Origin: Anaerolineales bacterium
GTDB taxonomy: Bacteria; Chloroflexota; Anaerolineae; Promineifilales; Promineifilaceae
Assembly: GCA_020432595.1 (NCBI GenBank)
Contig: JAGQGA010000006.1
Span: forward strand, 23,193 to 29,778
Direction of reading: 5' to 3'
DNA: 6,586 nt
In this document: piece by piece, positions 698 through 6,586 of the stretch
Layout: each line of letters begins with the position of its first letter
Numbering within the stretch: the first letter of the stretch is position 1
Program-made: the position numbers and the translations under genes
Notes under the pieces: generated by a model
Databases searched by the model: none
Told to the model about the DNA's origin: nothing
The model's input: only the letters and a program-made list of their open reading frames with translations

Positions 698-717
698 TGA
701 AAAACGGCCGTTTTTCA
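698..717. repeat. 20-bp perfect palindrome at the end of the split-barrel gene
   Basis: TGAAAAACGGCCGTTTTTCA is a perfect 20-bp palindrome. Its rightmost three bases (715-717) are the TGA stop codon of the - strand split-barrel gene, and its core (703-712) is one copy of the window's iterated word AACGGCCGTT. It is the only one of the 11 copies outside a coding region and the one with the longest palindromic arms. The run of five T's and the position at a gene end suggest a weak terminator, but a hairpin would have almost no loop. Confidence 0.75.
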
Positions 718-1176
718 CCCCCGATACACTTCTCCCGCAATCCACCCCATTCCGCCAAACCCAGCAATATAGCGCACTTGCGTCACTGCCAGCCGGTAAA
801 AGGCAAAATCGGTAAAGGTGGCGTAGCTGACGGCGCTGGGGTGAAGGGCGGTAAACGGCCGTAAAAGCAACTCCTTCTCCGCCACCGGCAGCAAATGCCC
901 CAGCAGCGTCACCCGTGGCCGCGCCAGCGCATTGGGGCTTTCCATTTCCGGGGCCAGCAGCAGCGACACTCGGTCATCCACCGCCGCATATTGCTGATGC
1001 TCCGCCAGGCGGCTCAACAGCAGCACCACCTCCCCATTGGGCAGCGGCAGCAGTTCCACCAGCGAGGCATAGGGAAAGCCTGTTTCCGGCTGCAATGTTG
1101 CCAACACCCCGCGCTTGCTGTTTGCCACCACCTGCCGCGCCGCCTGCGTCAATTCCGTCTCTTTTCCGGTGTTCAT
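715..1176 (-). CDS. Pyridoxamine 5'-phosphate oxidase-like FMN-binding split-barrel protein (HugZ-related)
   Basis: A 153-residue protein with the features of PNPOx-like split barrels: 'KRGVLATLQPETGFPYASLV' opening the barrel (about 21-40), 'GEVVLLLSRLAEHQQYAAVDDRVSLLL' (48-74), 'RPRVTLLGHL' (86-95), and the closing 'FYRLAVTQVRYIAGFGGMGWI' (126-146), which is typical of the HugZ/haem-utilisation branch. Members bind FMN (or sometimes F420 or haem) as dimers. Full HugZ proteins usually carry a C-terminal DUF2470 domain; it is absent here, so haem oxygenase activity should not be assumed. The ATG at 1176-1174 is preceded by AAGGTG with about 8 bases of spacing, a good ribosome site. The HAD gene ends 55 bases upstream on the same strand, so the two are probably co-transcribed. 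The C-terminal TGA lies in the 698-717 palindrome. Confidence 0.85.
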   Translation of the reverse strand: MNTGKETELTQAARQVVANSKRGVLATLQPETGFPYASLVELLPLPNGEVVLLLSRLAEHQQYAAVDDRVSLLLAPEMESPNALARPRVTLLGHLLPVAEKELLLRPFTALHPSAVSYATFTDFAFYRLAVTQVRYIAGFGGMGWIAGEVYRG

Positions 1177-1231
1177 ACATTCACCTTGTTTTTGAATATG
1201 TCTCTACCATACGGAGCATATGCAATACGCT

Positions 1232-1990
1232 CTACCGTTCTGCAATCGTGATTTCACCAATACTTTCCACCACCACATCCGCGTGCTGTTGCAAGACGGC
1301 TAAATCACCTGCCCCATCGCGCACGCCAATGCAGCCCGCAACCCCCGCATTGCGCCCAAACACCATGTCGCTGGCGGTGTCGCCCACCATCAACATGCGC
1401 TGCGGCGACACGCCCAGCGTTTGCGCGGCGTGATAGAGGCCATCGGGGGCCGGTTTGTTCGGCAAGGGGTCATCGCCACACACAACGGCCGTTACCCATT
1501 CCGCAATCCCCAATGCCGGTAGCTCATCCAGCGTGGCGCGACGGTCATCGCTGGTAATGACCGCAATTTTGACCCCCGCCACGTGCAGCGCTTGTACTGC
1601 TGCCGCTACATTTCCCAGTGGGCGTACCAACTGCGCCGAGGGGATGGCTTCGATGGTTTCGGTAACGGCCGTTTGCACCAACCCCTCCGCTGCATGCCAA
1701 GCCACCCCATGCTGATACAGCACCCCCGCCGCCAGCGTGTAGAGCTTGGGAATGGATGCCACCGCCAGCGGGCTGTCGTTGACCACCCGCTGGCTCGTCG
1801 GCTCATACCCCAACGTCTGAAACAACGCCTGCCGCATCGCCAGCGAACCATCGGTGCGGGCAATCAGAGCATCCACCCAAAGCTGCGCCTTCTGCCCCCA
1901 CAAATGGTGAAAATCGAGCAGCGTCCCGTCTTTGTCAAAGGCGATTGCGTCTATGTTGAAATAACGGCCGTTAATCCCTACTCTTGCCAT
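1232..1990 (-). CDS. HAD-superfamily hydrolase, phosphoglycolate phosphatase-like
   Basis: A 252-residue protein with all four HAD motifs in order. Motif I is FDKDGTLLD (18-26), with nucleophile D19 and acid/base D21. Motif II is VITS (144-147, T146), motif III is K179 in NKPAPDG, and motif IV is VGDTASDM (202-209), with Mg-binding D204 and D208. The stretch from about 27 to 120 between motifs I and II is helical and corresponds to a C1-type cap, as in Gph/PGMB-like phosphatases. The reaction is probably hydrolysis of a small phosphate ester; the substrate (2-phosphoglycolate, a sugar phosphate or a nucleotide) cannot be read from sequence. The ATG at 1990-1988 has AAGGG six bases upstream. 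Three copies of AACGGCCGTT fall in this gene, read as N7-G8-R9, T107-A108-V109 and T167-A168-V169. Confidence 0.9.
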   Translation of the reverse strand: MARVGINGRYFNIDAIAFDKDGTLLDFHHLWGQKAQLWVDALIARTDGSLAMRQALFQTLGYEPTSQRVVNDSPLAVASIPKLYTLAAGVLYQHGVAWHAAEGLVQTAVTETIEAIPSAQLVRPLGNVAAAVQALHVAGVKIAVITSDDRRATLDELPALGIAEWVTAVVCGDDPLPNKPAPDGLYHAAQTLGVSPQRMLMVGDTASDMVFGRNAGVAGCIGVRDGAGDLAVLQQHADVVVESIGEITIAER

Positions 1991-2008
1991 CTCATACCCT
2001 TCGGAATA

Positions 2009-2065
2009 GGACGCAGATTTACCTGATTTTCCTGATTATCAGGTTCATTAGGTAAATCTGCGTCC
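2009..2065. repeat. Nested inverted repeat between the IclR and HAD genes
   Basis: Perfect 16-bp arms GGACGCAGATTTACCT (2009-2024) and AGGTAAATCTGCGTCC (2050-2065) enclose 25 bases. Inside is a second inverted repeat, CCTGAT (2031-2036) and ATCAGG (2038-2043). A 9-mer direct repeat, TTTACCTGA/TTTTCCTGA, runs from 2018 to 2035. It occupies most of the 82-base gap between two co-oriented genes. In RNA it would form a long hairpin without a U-tract, so it could act as a processing or stability element. Its compound structure looks like a dispersed REP/MITE-type repeat, which cannot be confirmed from one copy. Confidence 0.85.
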
Positions 2066-2072
2066 CATCCTC

Positions 2073-2840
2073 TTACTTCGTCTTAGCCACATATACGCCC
2101 AATTGCGCCGAAATCTGTTCCGCCGTTTGCTGCGCCAACGCCACCACCGCCGCTGGCTCTCCCGCCGGAAAGCGAAACGAGGGGCCAAACAGGGTAATAG
2201 AGGCCACCATCTCACCATCCCCATTTTGCACCGGTACAGCCACTGCGTTCAGACCAGGGGCAAACTCCTCCAGCGACCAGTCATAACCCGTTTCACGGAT
2301 TTGCTGCAAACGCTGCCAAAGCTGTGCCGAGTCGGTGGGCGTGCCGGGGCCATAGGGAGCTAACGGCCGTTTCACATACCGCTCCACCTGCCTATCCGAC
2401 CGCGCCGCCAAAAAAAGCCGCCCCGATGTGACCACATGCAGCGGCAGCCGCGTCCCCGTCCAATCCTTCACCTGCACCGCCCCGTCGTGACGCACCTGAT
2501 CCACGTAAAAAGCCGAATCACCGTCAGGAATACACAGCCCCACATCCTCGCCCACTTGCTCCGCCAGCCGCAGCAAAAACGGCCGCGCCAGCAGCACCAG
2601 ATTTTGCTGAAACGGCAGCCGCACCACCAGCGACATCACGCCGCTGCCAATTTGAAAGTGATCGTTCTTGTTTTGGCGCGAAACGGCCGTTAATCCCTCC
2701 AACGTCCCCAGCAGCCGCGAAACCGTGCTTTTCGGCAACCCCACCCGCGCCGCAATCTCCGTCACTCCCAGCCCCTCCGGGTGCGAAGCCACCGCATCCA
2801 GGATCGCAAACGCCCGCTCAATGGATTGAACGCTTGACAT
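2073..2840 (-). CDS. IclR-family transcriptional regulator
   Basis: A 255-residue protein of standard IclR length. The N-terminal winged helix-turn-helix spans about residues 3-65, with 'GVTEIAARVGLPKSTVSRLLGTLE' (25-48) as the helix-turn-helix. The C-terminal effector-binding domain (about 75-250) shows 'LPLHVVTSGRLFLAA' (132-146) and the family signature 'EEFAPGLNAVAVPVQNGDGE' (191-210), followed by a GPSFR motif (219-223). Members bind small carboxylates or aromatics and repress, or sometimes activate, adjacent genes and themselves. The ATG at 2840-2838 has GAGGTG seven bases upstream. Divergence from hom, with interlocked promoters, makes hom and its own gene the likely targets. The effector is unknown. 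Two exact AACGGCCGTT copies (2362, 2682) and one degenerate copy (2578) lie in the gene. Confidence 0.93.
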   Translation of the reverse strand: MSSVQSIERAFAILDAVASHPEGLGVTEIAARVGLPKSTVSRLLGTLEGLTAVSRQNKNDHFQIGSGVMSLVVRLPFQQNLVLLARPFLLRLAEQVGEDVGLCIPDGDSAFYVDQVRHDGAVQVKDWTGTRLPLHVVTSGRLFLAARSDRQVERYVKRPLAPYGPGTPTDSAQLWQRLQQIRETGYDWSLEEFAPGLNAVAVPVQNGDGEMVASITLFGPSFRFPAGEPAAVVALAQQTAEQISAQLGVYVAKTK

Positions 2841-2861
2841 CGTTCCGCACCTCAGTACAAT
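2834..2861 (+). promoter_or_regulatory. Predicted sigma70-type promoter for hom
   Basis: A perfect -35 TTGACA (2834-2839), a 16-base spacer and a -10 TACAAT (2856-2861, one mismatch to TATAAT) put the start site near 2868, about 33 bases before the hom start codon. The -35 box overlaps the start codon of the divergent IclR gene (complement of 2838-2840). A short inverted pair, GTTCC (2842-2846) and GGAAC (2872-2876), brackets the -10 box and is a possible but unproven regulator half-site pair. Confidence 0.7.
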
Positions 2862-2878
2862 CCCGCATAATGGAACAG

Positions 2879-2907
2879 ATTTAACAGGAGTTACACCCCC
2901 TTGTCAA
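2879..2907 (-). promoter_or_regulatory. Predicted promoter for the IclR gene
   Basis: Read on the - strand: perfect TTGACA (2907-2902), a 17-base spacer and TTAAAT (2884-2879, four of six -10 consensus positions). The start site would be near 2872, about 32 bases before the IclR ATG. The -35 box overlaps the TTG start codon of hom. The -10 match is moderate, so this promoter is less certain than its partner. Confidence 0.5.
2886..2890 (+). promoter_or_regulatory. Ribosome binding site supporting a TTG start of hom
   Basis: AGGAG lies 10 bases before TTG (2901-2903). No in-frame ATG exists between the predicted transcript start and the conserved GxGxxG nucleotide-binding motif, so this site decides for a TTG initiation codon. 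Confidence 0.65.
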
Positions 2908-3944
2908 GCAAGACCTATCGCTTCATCCTCACCGGCGTTGGCAGCGTCGGCAAAGATTTATTACGTACTCTGCTGCAAAACGGCCCCCTGCTGGCACAGC
3001 GCTACGGCCTCACCTTGCGGCTTGTCGGCGCGGCCGATTCTGGCGGCGTGGTCGCCAACGCCAACGGCCTGGACATGGCCGCCCTGTTGGCGCACAAAGA
3101 AAGCGGCCGCAGCGTCAGCCAATTCGCTGGCGGTCAGCCCGGTCAGCCACCCGCCGCCCTGTTTGACCTGGTAGAGGCGGATTTGCTGCTGGAAGCTACC
3201 CCCACCAATTTGCAAGACGGCCAGCCAGGGCTGGATTTGGTTAAAACGGGGCTGCAAAAAGGGATGCACGCCGTGCTTGCCAGCAAAGGGCCGCTGGTGC
3301 TGGCCTTTGACGAACTGGCCGCCCTTAGCGATTGGCGGCAGCCGGGCGCACCGGCATTGCGCTTTAGTGGCGCGGTGGGCAGCCCCCTGCCTTCGGTCAG
3401 CGTGGGGATGCGCGACTTGGCCGGGGGGCATATTCGCCAAATTGAGGCGGTGGTCAACGGCACGACGCAAATGATTTTGCAGCTTATGGGCGAGGGGCAA
3501 TCCTATGCCGACGCCCTGAAGGAGGCGCAGGCCAAGGGGATTGCCGAGCCGGACCCGTCGCTGGATGTGGACGGCTGGGACAGCGCCAACAAGCTGGTGA
3601 TTTTAGCCAACACGGTGCTGCGCCAGCCCACCAAACTGGCAGATGTGGCGGTGCAGGGCATTGGCAACGTCTCGCTAGATGAGATTCGGGCGGCAACGGC
3701 GGCGGGTGGGCGAATGTCGCTGGTGGCAAGGGCGGTGTGGGAGGAGGAAAACGGCCGTTATTCCCTCTCCGTTGCCCCTGTTGCCCTCTCCCCCGACCAC
3801 GACCTGGCGCGGCTGTACAACGACAGCATGGGCATTGTTTACGACACCGATGTGTTCGGTCGGCTGGCCCTGCTCTGCGCCAACCCCGGCATCGGCACCG
3901 GCGCAGCCATGATGAAAGATGTGATCGGTATTTTTGCCGGATAG
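2901..3944 (+). CDS. hom: Homoserine dehydrogenase, short form without ACT domain
   Basis: A 347-residue enzyme that reduces aspartate-4-semialdehyde to homoserine with NAD(P)H in the cytosol, at the branch point to threonine and methionine. Visible features are the Rossmann motif GVGSVG (12-17), A127-S128-K129 (the usual NADP/catalytic lysine region), NGTTQMIL (186-193, usually NGTxNYIL) and the catalytic stretch from A215 to N236. In that stretch E216, D222, D227 and K231 match yeast E208, D214, D219 and K223. The protein ends near residue 347 after the catalytic domain. The C-terminal ACT domain of the roughly 430-residue form is missing, so threonine feedback through it is unlikely. It starts at TTG with AGGAG upstream. 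It is divergent from the IclR gene and is the first gene of a possible four-gene unit. A fused aspartate kinase is absent. Confidence 0.93.
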   Translation: MSSKTYRFILTGVGSVGKDLLRTLLQNGPLLAQRYGLTLRLVGAADSGGVVANANGLDMAALLAHKESGRSVSQFAGGQPGQPPAALFDLVEADLLLEATPTNLQDGQPGLDLVKTGLQKGMHAVLASKGPLVLAFDELAALSDWRQPGAPALRFSGAVGSPLPSVSVGMRDLAGGHIRQIEAVVNGTTQMILQLMGEGQSYADALKEAQAKGIAEPDPSLDVDGWDSANKLVILANTVLRQPTKLADVAVQGIGNVSLDEIRAATAAGGRMSLVARAVWEEENGRYSLSVAPVALSPDHDLARLYNDSMGIVYDTDVFGRLALLCANPGIGTGAAMMKDVIGIFAG

Positions 3945-4010
3945 AGATTAGAGGTTGGAGATTGGAGATTATGAAGGTTCATCAATCTCCAATCTCCAAT
4001 CCCCAATGAA
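3944..4010. repeat. Inverted heptamer array between hom and the thioesterase gene
   Basis: Four consecutive 7-mers with consensus GAGATTR fill 3944-3971, the first beginning on the last base of the hom stop codon. An 11-base centre follows (3972-3982), then four 7-mers of the form CAATCTC, CAATCTC, CAATCCC, CAATGAA (3983-4010). CAATCTC is the complement of GAGATTG, so the halves pair with perfect 16-bp arms at 3955-3970 and 3984-3999. The centre pairs further (ATGAA 3971-3975 with TTCAT 3978-3982). There is no U-tract. The period-7 build resembles the short tandemly repeated (STRR) heptanucleotides of cyanobacteria. Confidence 0.85.
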
Positions 4011-4018
4011 CCAAACCC

Positions 4019-4504
4019 ATGACCCAAACCACCCCCATCCCCACCCCTCTCACCCTCCACACTGCCAGCGTCCAGCCCGAATGGCTCGACTACAACCAGC
4101 ACATGACCGAAGGCTTTTACGCTGTCGCCTTCTGCCAAGCCTCCGAAGCCTTTCTCGATTACCTCGACATCGGCCCCGCCTACCGCGAACGCACTGGCTG
4201 CACCATCTACACCGTCGAAAGCCACCTTAATTATTTGCGCGAGCTAAAAGTGGGCGCGCCGCTGCGCTTCACCACCCAGCTTTTGGGGCATGATGCCAAG
4301 CGAATGCACGTTTACCATGAGATGTTCCACGCCGAAGAAGGGTATTTGGCGGCGACGTTTGAGGTGATGATGGTACACGTAGACCAGCGCGTGGTCAAAA
4401 CGGCTCCCATGCCCGACCCCGTGCTGGCGCAATTTGCCGCCATTCAGCAGGCACACAATGCCTTACCTCATTCAAAATGGGTGGGGCGGGTGATGATGTT
4501 ATGA
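4019..4504 (+). CDS. Hotdog-fold acyl-CoA thioesterase, betainyl-CoA thioesterase-like
   Basis: A 161-residue single-domain protein of the 4HBT-type hotdog superfamily. The N-terminal 'PEWLDYNQHMTEGFY' (20-34) carries D24, N26 and H28, the position of the catalytic Asp in 4-hydroxybenzoyl-CoA thioesterases. It is followed by 'YTVESHLNYLREL', 'LGHDAKRMHVYHEMFH' and 'AATFEVMMVHVD', and the C-terminus ends 'GRVMML'. This set of motifs is closest, from memory, to the thioesterases of carnitine catabolism and to the C-terminal domain of some carnitine dehydrogenases. No carnitine dehydrogenase is present here, so the substrate stays open. ATG at 4019 has no Shine-Dalgarno, and the sequence in front is the heptamer array. 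No better in-frame start exists before the catalytic motif. The product is expected to be a cytosolic oligomer that hydrolyses a small acyl-CoA. Confidence 0.85.
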   Translation: MTQTTPIPTPLTLHTASVQPEWLDYNQHMTEGFYAVAFCQASEAFLDYLDIGPAYRERTGCTIYTVESHLNYLRELKVGAPLRFTTQLLGHDAKRMHVYHEMFHAEEGYLAATFEVMMVHVDQRVVKTAPMPDPVLAQFAAIQQAHNALPHSKWVGRVMML

Positions 4505-4505
4505 C

Positions 4506-4533
4506 GTAGAGACGCAAGATTTTGCGTCTCTAC
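4506..4533. repeat. Compact inverted repeat filling the thioesterase-oxidoreductase gap
   Basis: Arms GTAGAGACGCAA (4506-4517) and TTGCGTCTCTAC (4522-4533) match perfectly around a four-base loop, GATT. It starts one base after the thioesterase TGA and ends directly against the AGGA ribosome site of the next gene. Palindromes with GTAGAGACG...CGTCTCTAC ends are, to my knowledge, common dispersed repeats in cyanobacteria and related genomes. In mRNA it would be a stable stem-loop between two cistrons. Confidence 0.9.
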
Positions 4534-4537
4534 AGGA
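4534..4537 (+). promoter_or_regulatory. Ribosome binding site deciding the oxidoreductase start
   Basis: AGGA, eight bases before ATG 4546, selects that start. The open frame extends back to a TTG at 4522, but this lies in the right arm of the hairpin, and another ATG at 4537 overlaps the AGGA itself. Confidence 0.7.
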
Positions 4538-4545
4538 TGGTTTTT

Positions 4546-5409
4546 ATGAAAATCGGCGTTGTTTATCCTCAAACAGAACTTGCCAGCGATCCCATTGCCA
4601 TTCGTGACTACGCGCAGGCAGTCGAGGCGATGGGGTATGAGTTTGTGCTGGCCTATGACCACGTTTTGGGCGCAAATCCCGACCGCCCCGGCGGGTGGAG
4701 TGGGCCATACACCCATGAGTCGTCGTTTATGGAGCCGTTTGTGCTGTTTAGCTTTATGGCGGGCGCCACCAGCAAGCTGGGGTTTGCCACCGGCATTTTG
4801 ATTTTGCCACAGCGGAAAACGGCACTGGTAGCCAAACAGGCGGCGACGCTGGATGTGTTGTGTAACGGCCGTTTTCGTCTCGGCATTGGCGTGGGCTGGA
4901 ATGAAGTCGAATACGTGGCGCTCAACCAGAACTTCCACACGCGGGGGCGGCGAGCCGAGGAGCAAATCCGGCTGCTGCGCGAGCTGTGGACGAAGCGGCT
5001 GGTGACGTTTAACGGCAACTGGCACAATATCCCCGACGCCGGGCTGCTGCCCATGCCCATTCAGCAGCCCATTCCCATTTGGATGGGCGGCCATGCTGAT
5101 GCGGTGCTGCGCCGCATTGCCGTCATGGGTGACGGCTGGATGCCGGGCTTTCGTGAAGCGCATCAGGCACGGGCAACGCTGGATAAATTGGCGGGGTATT
5201 TGGCAGAAAACGGCCGTTCTCGCAGCGACATCGGCCTCGAACCCCGGCTGCACTATGGCGACGGCAATCTGGATCGGTTGGGGCAATCGGCGGCCGGCTG
5301 GCGCGAAGCCGGAGCCACCCACCTCAGCCTCAACACCATGGACTCCGACTGCACCACGCCCGATGAGCATCTGGCGGCGTTGCGGCGTTTTGCCGAAATA
5401 ATTTTTTGA
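4546..5409 (+). CDS. LLM-class oxidoreductase, probably F420-dependent (TIGR03619-like)
   Basis: A 287-residue bacterial-luciferase-like TIM-barrel enzyme. It begins MKIGVVYPQTELASDP, as relatives do. It shows 'YDHVLGANPDRPG' (37-49), 'FMEPFVLFSFMAGAT' (61-75), the core 'ILPQRKTALVAKQAATLDVL' (86-105) continuing to 'GIGVGWNEVEY' (113-123), 'RGRRAEEQIRLLRELW' (133-148) and 'PIPIWMGGHADAVLRRIAVMGDGWMP' (175-200). These are hallmarks of the Rv2161c/TIGR03619-type group, most of whose members are predicted to use coenzyme F420 rather than FMN. The cofactor and substrate cannot be proven from sequence. The length is usual for the family. The start at 4546 agrees with the conserved N-terminus and the AGGA site. 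Two AACGGCCGTT copies encode Asn-Gly-Arg at 107-109 and 222-224. Codon use matches the neighbours. Confidence 0.9.
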   Translation: MKIGVVYPQTELASDPIAIRDYAQAVEAMGYEFVLAYDHVLGANPDRPGGWSGPYTHESSFMEPFVLFSFMAGATSKLGFATGILILPQRKTALVAKQAATLDVLCNGRFRLGIGVGWNEVEYVALNQNFHTRGRRAEEQIRLLRELWTKRLVTFNGNWHNIPDAGLLPMPIQQPIPIWMGGHADAVLRRIAVMGDGWMPGFREAHQARATLDKLAGYLAENGRSRSDIGLEPRLHYGDGNLDRLGQSAAGWREAGATHLSLNTMDSDCTTPDEHLAALRRFAEIIF

Positions 5410-5417
5410 TGTTAATC

Positions 5418-5476
5418 GTGGGGAGAAGGGAGTGGGCAGTGTTCAGTACCCCACTCCCTTCTCCCCACTCCCTTCA
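5418..5476. repeat. Inverted heptamer array between the oxidoreductase gene and aroC
   Basis: Perfect 19-bp arms (5418-5436 and 5450-5468) flank a 13-base loop. The left half is four 7-mers of the form GNNNNNA (GTGGGGA, GAAGGGA, GTGGGCA, GTGTTCA; 5418-5445), then GTA. The right half is four 7-mers (CCCCACT, CCCTTCT, CCCCACT, CCCTTCA; 5449-5476), that is, a tandem 14-mer with one mismatch. The layout (four heptamers, short centre, four heptamers) matches the element at 3944-4010, although the sequences are unrelated. The purine-rich half would form a very stable RNA hairpin that lacks a U-tract. Confidence 0.88.
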
Positions 5477-5486
5477 GCCAAACCAC

Positions 5487-6586
5487 ATGGAACTTCTCGG
5501 TGGCCCCCTCTTCGCCGTAGCCGGTGCGGGTGAATCGCACGGCCCGGCGGTGACAACGATTATTTTTGGCACGCCGCCCGGCTTAAAAGTGTCGCGGCAG
5601 CAGGTGCAGGCGTATTTGGACAGACGGCGGCCGGGCAGCAACCGCCACGGTACGCCGCGCAACGAAAAAGATAAGGTGGTTTTTCTCTCTGGTCTGTACC
5701 AAGACAACCACGACGCGCTGGCAGCAGGGCCGGAGATTCGCGTCTCGGTGGAAGGGAGCGACTTTGCGACAACCGGATATGAAGAGGGATACACCACCGG
5801 CGAACCCATTAGCGCGATAGTCCTTTCTACCAGCAATAAATCGGCGCATTACCAGCAGTTTATGGGTGCCACGGGCGAAGTGCGCCCCGGCCACACCGAT
5901 TTGGTGAAGTTCCACCAGTCGCAGGGGTTTGTGGACGTGCGCGGCGGTGGTCGCTCCAGCTACCGCTCCACCATTTCTGACGTGATTGGCGGCTCGGTAG
6001 CGCGGCTGTTTTTGCAGCAAACGTTTGGCACGGTCATTTTTTCGGCCATTACGCAGGTGGGGCCGTTGAAGACGGAGCAAACGTTAAGCCGCTATTTTGC
6101 CCATCTGCTGGCGGAGACCGGGGGGCAGCGGGTGAGTGAGGAGAACTTAACGGCCGTTTCCCATCGCCTCACCACCGCCGAAATCCACACCCTTGACGCC
6201 GAATTTGCCGAAGAAGCAGGAGAGTTAATCAAACAAACGCGCATCGAAGGGGATTCGCTGGGGGCAATGGTAGAAGTGGTGGCCATCAACGTGCCGGCTC
6301 TGGTGGGCGACCCGCTCTACCAAAGCTTGAAGGTACGGCTGATGGGGACGCTGGGCGGGCTAAATGCAGTGCAGTCGTGTGAGGTGGGGGATGGAACGGC
6401 CGTTATTGCCCGGCGCGGCAGCGACAACAACGACCCCATCCGCACCGGCGGCTACCAAAGCAACAGCCACGGCGGGCTAATTGGCGGCATCACCACCGGA
6501 ATGCCGCTGGTTTGTCGCGTGGGCTTCAAGCCCACTTCCACCATTGTCAAGCCGCAGCAGTCGGTGCGGAAAAATCTGGAAGAGAT
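5487..6586 (+). CDS. aroC: Chorismate synthase (3' end beyond window)
   Basis: The first 366 codons are present. The enzyme converts 5-enolpyruvylshikimate-3-phosphate to chorismate using reduced FMN, the last shikimate step. Motifs: GESHG (15-19, catalytic H18), DRRRPG (45-50), VRPGHTD (132-138, catalytic H136), RGGGRSS (152-158), EGDSLGA, GDGTAVIARRGSDNND, GYQSNSHGGLIGGI and FKPTST. The N-terminus 'MELLGGPLFAVAGAGESHG' is unlike the usual 'G..F.vttfGESHG'. Compared with E. coli AroC from memory there are about 28 extra residues between LSG (67-69) and TTGEPI (103-108), and a longer segment before EGDSLGA. The C-terminal part with the conserved RHDPC-type motif is cut off. ATG 5487 has no visible Shine-Dalgarno; the heptamer array ends 10 bases upstream. 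Two AACGGCCGTT copies (6149, 6395) encode Thr-Ala-Val. Confidence 0.95.
   Translation, partial: MELLGGPLFAVAGAGESHGPAVTTIIFGTPPGLKVSRQQVQAYLDRRRPGSNRHGTPRNEKDKVVFLSGLYQDNHDALAAGPEIRVSVEGSDFATTGYEEGYTTGEPISAIVLSTSNKSAHYQQFMGATGEVRPGHTDLVKFHQSQGFVDVRGGGRSSYRSTISDVIGGSVARLFLQQTFGTVIFSAITQVGPLKTEQTLSRYFAHLLAETGGQRVSEENLTAVSHRLTTAEIHTLDAEFAEEAGELIKQTRIEGDSLGAMVEVVAINVPALVGDPLYQSLKVRLMGTLGGLNAVQSCEVGDGTAVIARRGSDNNDPIRTGGYQSNSHGGLIGGITTGMPLVCRVGFKPTSTIVKPQQSVRKNLEE

Follow-up and report, generated by a model that had tools for sequence, protein, structure and literature searches.

The 6,586-bp stretch of Anaerolineales DNA analysed here (contig JAGQGA010000006.1, positions 23,193 to 29,778; hereafter the window) contains 11 exact copies of AACGGCCGTT, a 10-letter palindrome that equals its own reverse complement. 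Because this word is palindromic, dense and indifferent to the genes in which it lies, and because its flanks switch, it is a highly iterated palindrome (HIP) of the type known from cyanobacteria, though distinct from HIP1, and our searches found no earlier report of one in this phylum. In 200 dinucleotide-preserving shuffles of the window the mean count was 0.01 and the largest 1, which bears out the preliminary description of this DNA in placing the 11 copies far above chance. The same description had called the word HIP1-like; its behaviour is indeed of the HIP type, but AACGGCCGTT is the version found in one lineage of a family of words built on CGGCCG, with switching flanks. Our preferred explanation, to which we assign a probability of roughly 0.45, is that these words are binding sites, selected for their density, of a putative dimeric genome-maintenance protein.

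The window holds 17 CGGCCG, 12 copies of the 8-mer ACGGCCGT and 11 of AACGGCCGTT, and every other 10-mer palindrome occurs in it at most once. The single one-base neighbour of the word, AACGGCCGTA (854..863), lies in the pyridoxamine-oxidase-like gene and retains the twelfth 8-mer (at 855), in the RP phase. Pfam identified eight genes, five of which contain the genic copies, and copy 1 (703..712) sits within GAAAAACGGCCGTTTTTC in a gap between genes. Five copies are read in the TAV phase, namely copies 2 and 3 (1484..1493 and 1664..1673) in the HAD hydrolase gene, copy 6 (2682..2691) in the IclR regulator gene and copies 10 and 11 (6149..6158 and 6395..6404) in the chorismate synthase gene aroC. 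Four are in the NGR phase: copy 4 (1963..1972) in the HAD hydrolase gene, copy 7 (3750..3759) in the homoserine dehydrogenase gene and copies 8 and 9 (4864..4873 and 5209..5218) in the luciferase-like monooxygenase gene. Copy 5 (2362..2371), in the IclR regulator gene, is likewise in the RP phase. This phase count agrees with the earlier statement that the word occurs in all three codon phases and once outside genes. The DUF4258 and thioesterase genes of the window contain no copy of AACGGCCGTT.

Genome-wide tests were carried out on relatives of the window and not on its own genome. A contig scan with the window's chorismate synthase identified 12 loci, the nearest of which (L001, from an Anaerolineae metagenome assembly, isolate CHL1) shows 78% identity. 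The genome of this locus, G001, contains 877 AACGGCCGTT against 22 copies of the reversed palindrome and, in 7.7 Mb, 14,867 ACGGCCGT against 185 of the control. Among 16 chorismate synthases in a protein tree, that of the window groups with those of G026 and G027 (support 93/89, below the level that the tool marks with a star), and both are members of the same order as G001. Among 56 genomes of this Anaerolineae (Chloroflexota) order, AACGGCCGTT is present at least 300 times in 29, 50–299 times in six and fewer than 50 times in 21. The 29 word-rich genomes carry 361–5,060 copies each, with a reversed control of at most 42, a ceiling that holds across all 56 genomes save G024 (157). More than 1,000 ACGGCCGT were found in 21 of 396 Anaerolineae genomes, all 21 of them within the 56-genome order, and the highest count outside the order in this class sample was 430. 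The density of ACGGCCGT peaks at 2.1 per kb (G034). Ten other Anaerolineae genomes of 2.2–6.0 Mb (G077, G108, G178, G207, G287, G292, G356, G367, G387 and G395) contain no ACGGCCGT at all, with the reversed palindrome present 15–247 times; this points to avoidance of the word, of which restriction is perhaps the cause.

The words of the order share the core CGGCCG and differ by lineage in their palindromic flanks, as judged from 3–41 kb samples per genome plus 80–200 kb from six genomes. The dominant form is AACGGCCGTT, ACGGCCGT, TCGGCCGA, GCGGCCGC or none, so that the palindromic word is 6, 8 or 10 bp long. In the six longer samples the words reach 27 to about 355 times the expectation of a second-order Markov model: 386 ACGGCCGT in 200 kb against 7.6 expected in G001, 322 against 5.6 in G032, 71 AACGGCCGTT in 84 kb against 0.2 in G012, 170 TCGGCCGA in 140 kb against 3.9 in G010, 158 TCGGCCGA in 100 kb against 5.8 in G029, and 125 GCGGCCGC in 80 kb against 3.1 in G046. 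The count against a Markov model that had been proposed for this word was run on relatives, and the outcome named as refuting, a frequency close to expectation, was not seen; in whole genomes hundreds to thousands of copies face tens of the control. No repeat body extends beyond the word, with at most 0.22 bits at positions 5–12 outside it in all six sets.

In G011 and G050–G053 the core occurs at 14–19 times the base-composition expectation without a dominant flank (151 CGGCCG in 30 kb of G011), and in 12 mostly GC-rich genomes (G004, G036–G042 and G055–G058) at merely 2.5–4.6 times expectation. In the pooled loci of G011 and G050, where CGGCCG stands at 16–19 times the base-composition expectation, GCCGGC, GGCGCC and CCCGGG are nearly missing. 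G024 has switched its core within the same order: seven loci (L095 and L226–L231) carry 57 TGCCGGCA in 50.7 kb, 40 times the base-composition expectation, together with four CGGCCG (0.1 times expectation) and no ACGGCCGT. The share of ACGGCCGT 8-mers extended to AACGGCCGTT is 0.82–0.84 in G012 and G013, 11/12 in the window and 0.06 in G001, G005, G006 and G009. Because the window's nearest kin rarely show the 10-mer (2 of 38 sampled 8-mers in G026 and 2 of 37 in G027), the AA...TT extension probably has more than one origin. A candidate flank switch at a homologous site came from an alignment of 23 of 30 genes for the DUF1156-like protein described below, seven having been removed by a frame filter. 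G046 has GCGGCCGC there where nine genomes have ACGGCCGT, yet G035, itself a ACGGCCGT genome, also has GCGGCCGC, and the case was rejected.

The sites are kept as DNA. We compared 18 pairs of loci, using 8-mers of equal G+C as control. In three pairs with 93–94% DNA identity, 83 of 84 ACGGCCGT sites were intact against 57.6 expected (P 6e-13, if sites are independent); singly, these pairs shared 21/21, 31/32 and 31/31 sites, with control values of 0.61, 0.68 and 0.74. Between G001 and four relatives (~84% identity), 15–17 of 17 sites were intact (control 0.35–0.37). The corresponding figures were 28/30 for G006/G007 (86%; control 0.45), 6/7 for G031/G033 (87%; control 0.34) and 25/33 for G031/G032 (79%; control 0.146), and the remaining eight pairs, with at most three sites each, retained seven of nine in total. 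The footprint of this conservation is the 8-mer, eight positions standing out while neighbouring bases scatter about background. Across four pairs with no genome in common, codons for a conserved amino acid inside sites were identical in 183 of 183 cases, where the rate for the same codons outside sites predicts 142.5; six further pairs, which reuse the same or neighbouring genomes, gave one exception to codon identity. Protein-level selection had been considered insufficient to explain the word, and we concur: the aroC site at 6149 is present in 0 of 15 aligned homologues, the one at 6395 only in the nearest two (G026 and G027, as TACGGCCGTT) and in none of the 13 others, and codons are frozen beyond amino-acid conservation. 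By eye, the 13 homologues without site 6395 have threonine at its first codon in 0/13 cases and alanine at its second in 1/13. Because site-less homologues mostly have other residues there, gain of a site can alter the protein.

Across the six genomes sampled at length, in which genes were taken as simple open frames, sites occur in all phases and between genes. The TAV, SA[DE] or AAA phase accounts for at least half of the genic sites. Sites are as dense between genes as within them in G001 and G029, whereas the remaining four genomes have a lower intergenic density. Pairs of sites less than 100 bp apart are scarcer than under random placement (128 versus 179.7), with fewer in each genome.

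HIP1, GCGATCGC, was described in cyanobacteria in 1995, and its link to methyltransferases is still called a mystery (PMC4390886). A cyanobacterial genome that has a HIP is reported also to encode a methyltransferase that covers the word (Elhai, 2015; PMC4390886). The HIP1 work that we found concerns cyanobacteria, in which the word, the methyltransferases and the phylogeny are linked to one another. Like HIP1, the Chloroflexota word is a palindromic 8–10-mer at hundreds to thousands per Mb, its palindromic extensions and flank variants vary by lineage, and a different GC-rich palindrome takes its place in some genomes (PMC4390886). It differs in having a CGGCCG core without GATC, in its phylum and in that no methyltransferase family was found to track it; the window has seven 8-mer palindromes, and GCGATCGC is not one of them. 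Alternative cyanobacterial HIPs (GGCGCC, rCCGGy, GCsGC, GGGATCCC and TCGATCGA) replace one iterated palindrome by another per lineage (PMC4390886), as TGCCGGCA does in G024, but there a methyltransferase is reported to cover the word, whereas here a single core, in at least four flank forms, is common to much of an order. Three features of the HIP class (Elhai, 2015) were found here: density far above expectation (in relatives), a spread indifferent to gene and phase, and extensions and replacements that keep the palindrome. M.Ssp6803II of Synechocystis (GGm4CC) modifies GGCC, the centre of the Chloroflexota word, and the opening of the abstract makes no mention of an iterated CGGCCG (PMC6560206). 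A lake metaepigenome assigns three Chloroflexi genomes the motifs GANTC, TTAA and GCWGC, with no CGGCCG in the portion consulted (PMC6329791). No report of an iterated palindrome in Chloroflexota was found in the literature searched, most subscription papers being outside its reach. AACGGCCGTT as a whole word appeared in no paper searched by full text, and ACGGCCGT only in a DNA-encryption paper. Chi-like recombination sites are oriented and asymmetric, whereas AACGGCCGTT is symmetric. Repetitive extragenic palindromes, bacterial interspersed mosaic elements (REP/BIME) and transposon-derived repeats have a repeated body beyond a short word, whereas the Chloroflexota word has no such body around it.

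The symmetry of the word, its shared CGG half-site, a footprint of 8 bp and the shortage of closely spaced sites lead us to favour a dimeric reader together with selection for density. It also fits that one-step variants of the core are no commoner than expected in all but one (G046) of the five 8-mer genomes. AACGGCCGTT is this lineage's form of a HIP carried by much of one Anaerolineae order. On our reading, a putative dimeric protein with two CGG half-sites would bind the word and, at a density near one per kb, use it to maintain the genome, most probably in mismatch or recombination repair or in organising the chromosome. Pressure for an adequate density would make sites where proteins tolerate them and then retain them, and a change in the reader's outer-base contacts would let flanks drift genome-wide to a new palindrome. 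The wider claim, that this order has evolved a HIP system of its own, with a word unlike that of cyanobacteria and independent of a conventional cytosine methyltransferase, in which a dimeric CGG-CCG reader would impose the word and, on a shift in its outer-base specificity, rewrite thousands of flanks, we hold slightly more tentatively.

Several observations weigh against such a reader. No protein suited to this role was found, and biased repair would, as a side effect, also switch flanks fast. The effect on spacing is modest: only in G010 and G029 are sites, taken overall, spread more evenly than at random, and in G001 they are spread less evenly (coefficient of variation 1.13 vs 1.00). Core variants are somewhat in excess in G046 (41 vs 31.3). 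Partial words exist, as four of the six genomes have more outermost-base variants than expected; at position 1 the excess is 3.5-fold in G032, 2.0-fold in G001 and 3.3-fold in G010, with 19 versus 0.5 in G012 and none in G029 (0.94) or G046 (0.73). Finally, the genomes are assemblies, many of them fragmented and possibly incomplete.

Among the other explanations, we regard as unlikely the one proposed for cyanobacterial HIPs, in which methylation-directed mismatch repair is the cause (Elhai, 2015; PMC4390886). In this model an orphan methyltransferase would mark the core cytosine, and repair directed by that methylation would ratchet the genome towards the word with no function needed. The phenomenon closely resembles the cyanobacterial HIPs, and the excess of outermost-base variants in four genomes resembles a pattern that Elhai describes (PMC4390886). 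The four single-base site losses that could be placed by eye (two in G006, one in G009 and one in G007) are all G>A, that is, C>T on the opposite strand, as cytosine deamination gives. Also in its favour, the proteins of the core-dense genome G011 include one that is homologous to M.HaeIII over its full length (E 7e-125). M.HaeIII targets GGCC.

The suggestion of an orphan methyltransferase, made in the preliminary description, gained no support when such enzymes were sought, as no methyltransferase, Vsr or Dnd family searched follows the distribution of the word among the 56 genomes. The C5 methyltransferase family PF00145 was present in 26 of the 56; it was found in 15 of the 29 word-rich genomes (at least 300 copies) and not in the other 14, from which incomplete assemblies may hide enzymes. 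A motif search recognised 10 proteins at 30 C5 loci, of which one pair shares 65% identity, one 45% and all others less than 40%. PF01555 was above cut-off in 45 of the 56 genomes; on re-examination of 11, seven had no match above cut-off, namely the word-rich G001, G015 and G043 plus G051–G054. Neither family follows the word, and both were rejected as the conventional methyltransferase behind it. A DUF1156-like protein of ~680 residues, with the methyltransferase motifs DPMMGGGTTLHEA and TDPPYFDS, is encoded at L182:1276-3297 (minus strand), at L143:16657-18732 (minus strand) and in relatives. Its matches in Pfam, NCBIfam and the PDB are partial or weak; the G001 copy reaches the PF01555 cut-off when scanned whole. 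It is likely an orphan DNA methylase. Shared by G001, G005, G014 and G032, it was considered as the word's own methylase and rejected, since word-poor genomes and outsiders carry it. It occurs in 43 of the 56 genomes at E <1e-80, word-poor ones included, and also outside the order, where at most three candidates were scored per genome, and it has no good match in the word-rich G043 and G044. G043 carries 3,716 copies of the word despite having no passing match to any of the three methyltransferase families searched. Very-short-patch repair (Vsr, in 8/56 genomes) and DndC of DNA phosphorothioation (above cut-off in 5/56) are too rare to be responsible. A single common methyltransferase thus has no support, although incomplete assemblies or unfamiliar enzymes could hide one.

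Similarly improbable, in our estimation, is a bias at the core, whether in mutation, in repair or in gene conversion, that would make and keep the word without benefit to the cell. The presence of sites in many kinds of gene and in all phases, the switching of flanks by lineage and the one switch of core to TGCCGGCA are what such a process could produce, and directed repair could yield near-perfect retention. However, a biased process is local and blind to its neighbours, whereas in each of the six genomes sites lie close together less often than random placement gives. In addition, several sites that were gained or lost depart from the corresponding sequence at multiple bases simultaneously, beyond the reach of a single-base bias. 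One-step variants of the core are also not depleted beyond control palindromes. Active depletion of near-miss words was itself rejected on this ground: core variants number 188 against 257.9 under the Markov model (five genomes), but some control palindromes are equally low (7/62, 21/62, 16/60 and 2/52 in four genomes), and word-poor genomes give 0.60–0.83.

DNA uptake sequences are short words that recur about once per kb across genes and are asymmetric, not palindromic. That the Chloroflexota word accumulated through transformation preferring word-bearing DNA seems to us quite improbable. Its density of 1–2 per kb is within the range of uptake sequences, and restriction-modification loci, which are probably acquired DNA, are poorer in sites than the regions around recA when 20 genomes are pooled (152 in 122.9 kb versus 562 in 340.9 kb). 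The word is nonetheless a strict palindrome with switching flanks, and four of five 8-mer genomes have singly mismatched cores no more often than expected. The same pooled densities (1.24 sites per kb in restriction-modification loci, 1.65 near recA) had been considered as exclusion of the word from acquired DNA, which was rejected given the large scatter and some reversed cases. Chance, codon usage, a protein motif, a mobile repeat or an assembly artefact can be practically dismissed: TAV, NGR and RP do recur among the sites, but the shuffles and Markov models, the three phases and non-coding sites, the synonymous freezing, the lack of a flanking repeat body and the separate assemblies of dozens of genomes speak against them.

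A second phylum with a HIP-type word provides a second case for learning what such words do. Within one order there is a natural experiment, with a fixed core, at least four flank forms, word-less genomes and one change of core, and with several word-bearing genomes that lack a match to the usual methyltransferase families. Gene-by-gene comparison of these genomes can test the methylation model and point to a reader protein. The freezing of sites is also a warning that many codons in these genomes owe their form to the DNA and neither to the protein nor to codon usage.

Two full-length RecA genes are present in many of the order's genomes (e.g., G001, G010 and G036). A recA tree (46 of 48 frames) was rejected as a species tree, with two paralogues mixed and weak support, and no gain or loss counts were drawn from it. 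Positions 1–700 of the window, which include the DUF4258 gene and no AACGGCCGTT, have a G+C content of 0.43 compared with 0.60 in the remainder and are perhaps a recent acquisition. Inverted repeats of four different sequences, with arms of 12–31 nt that are 84–100% complementary, lie in the intergenic gaps at 2006–2068, 3947–4007, 4506–4533 and 5418–5468.

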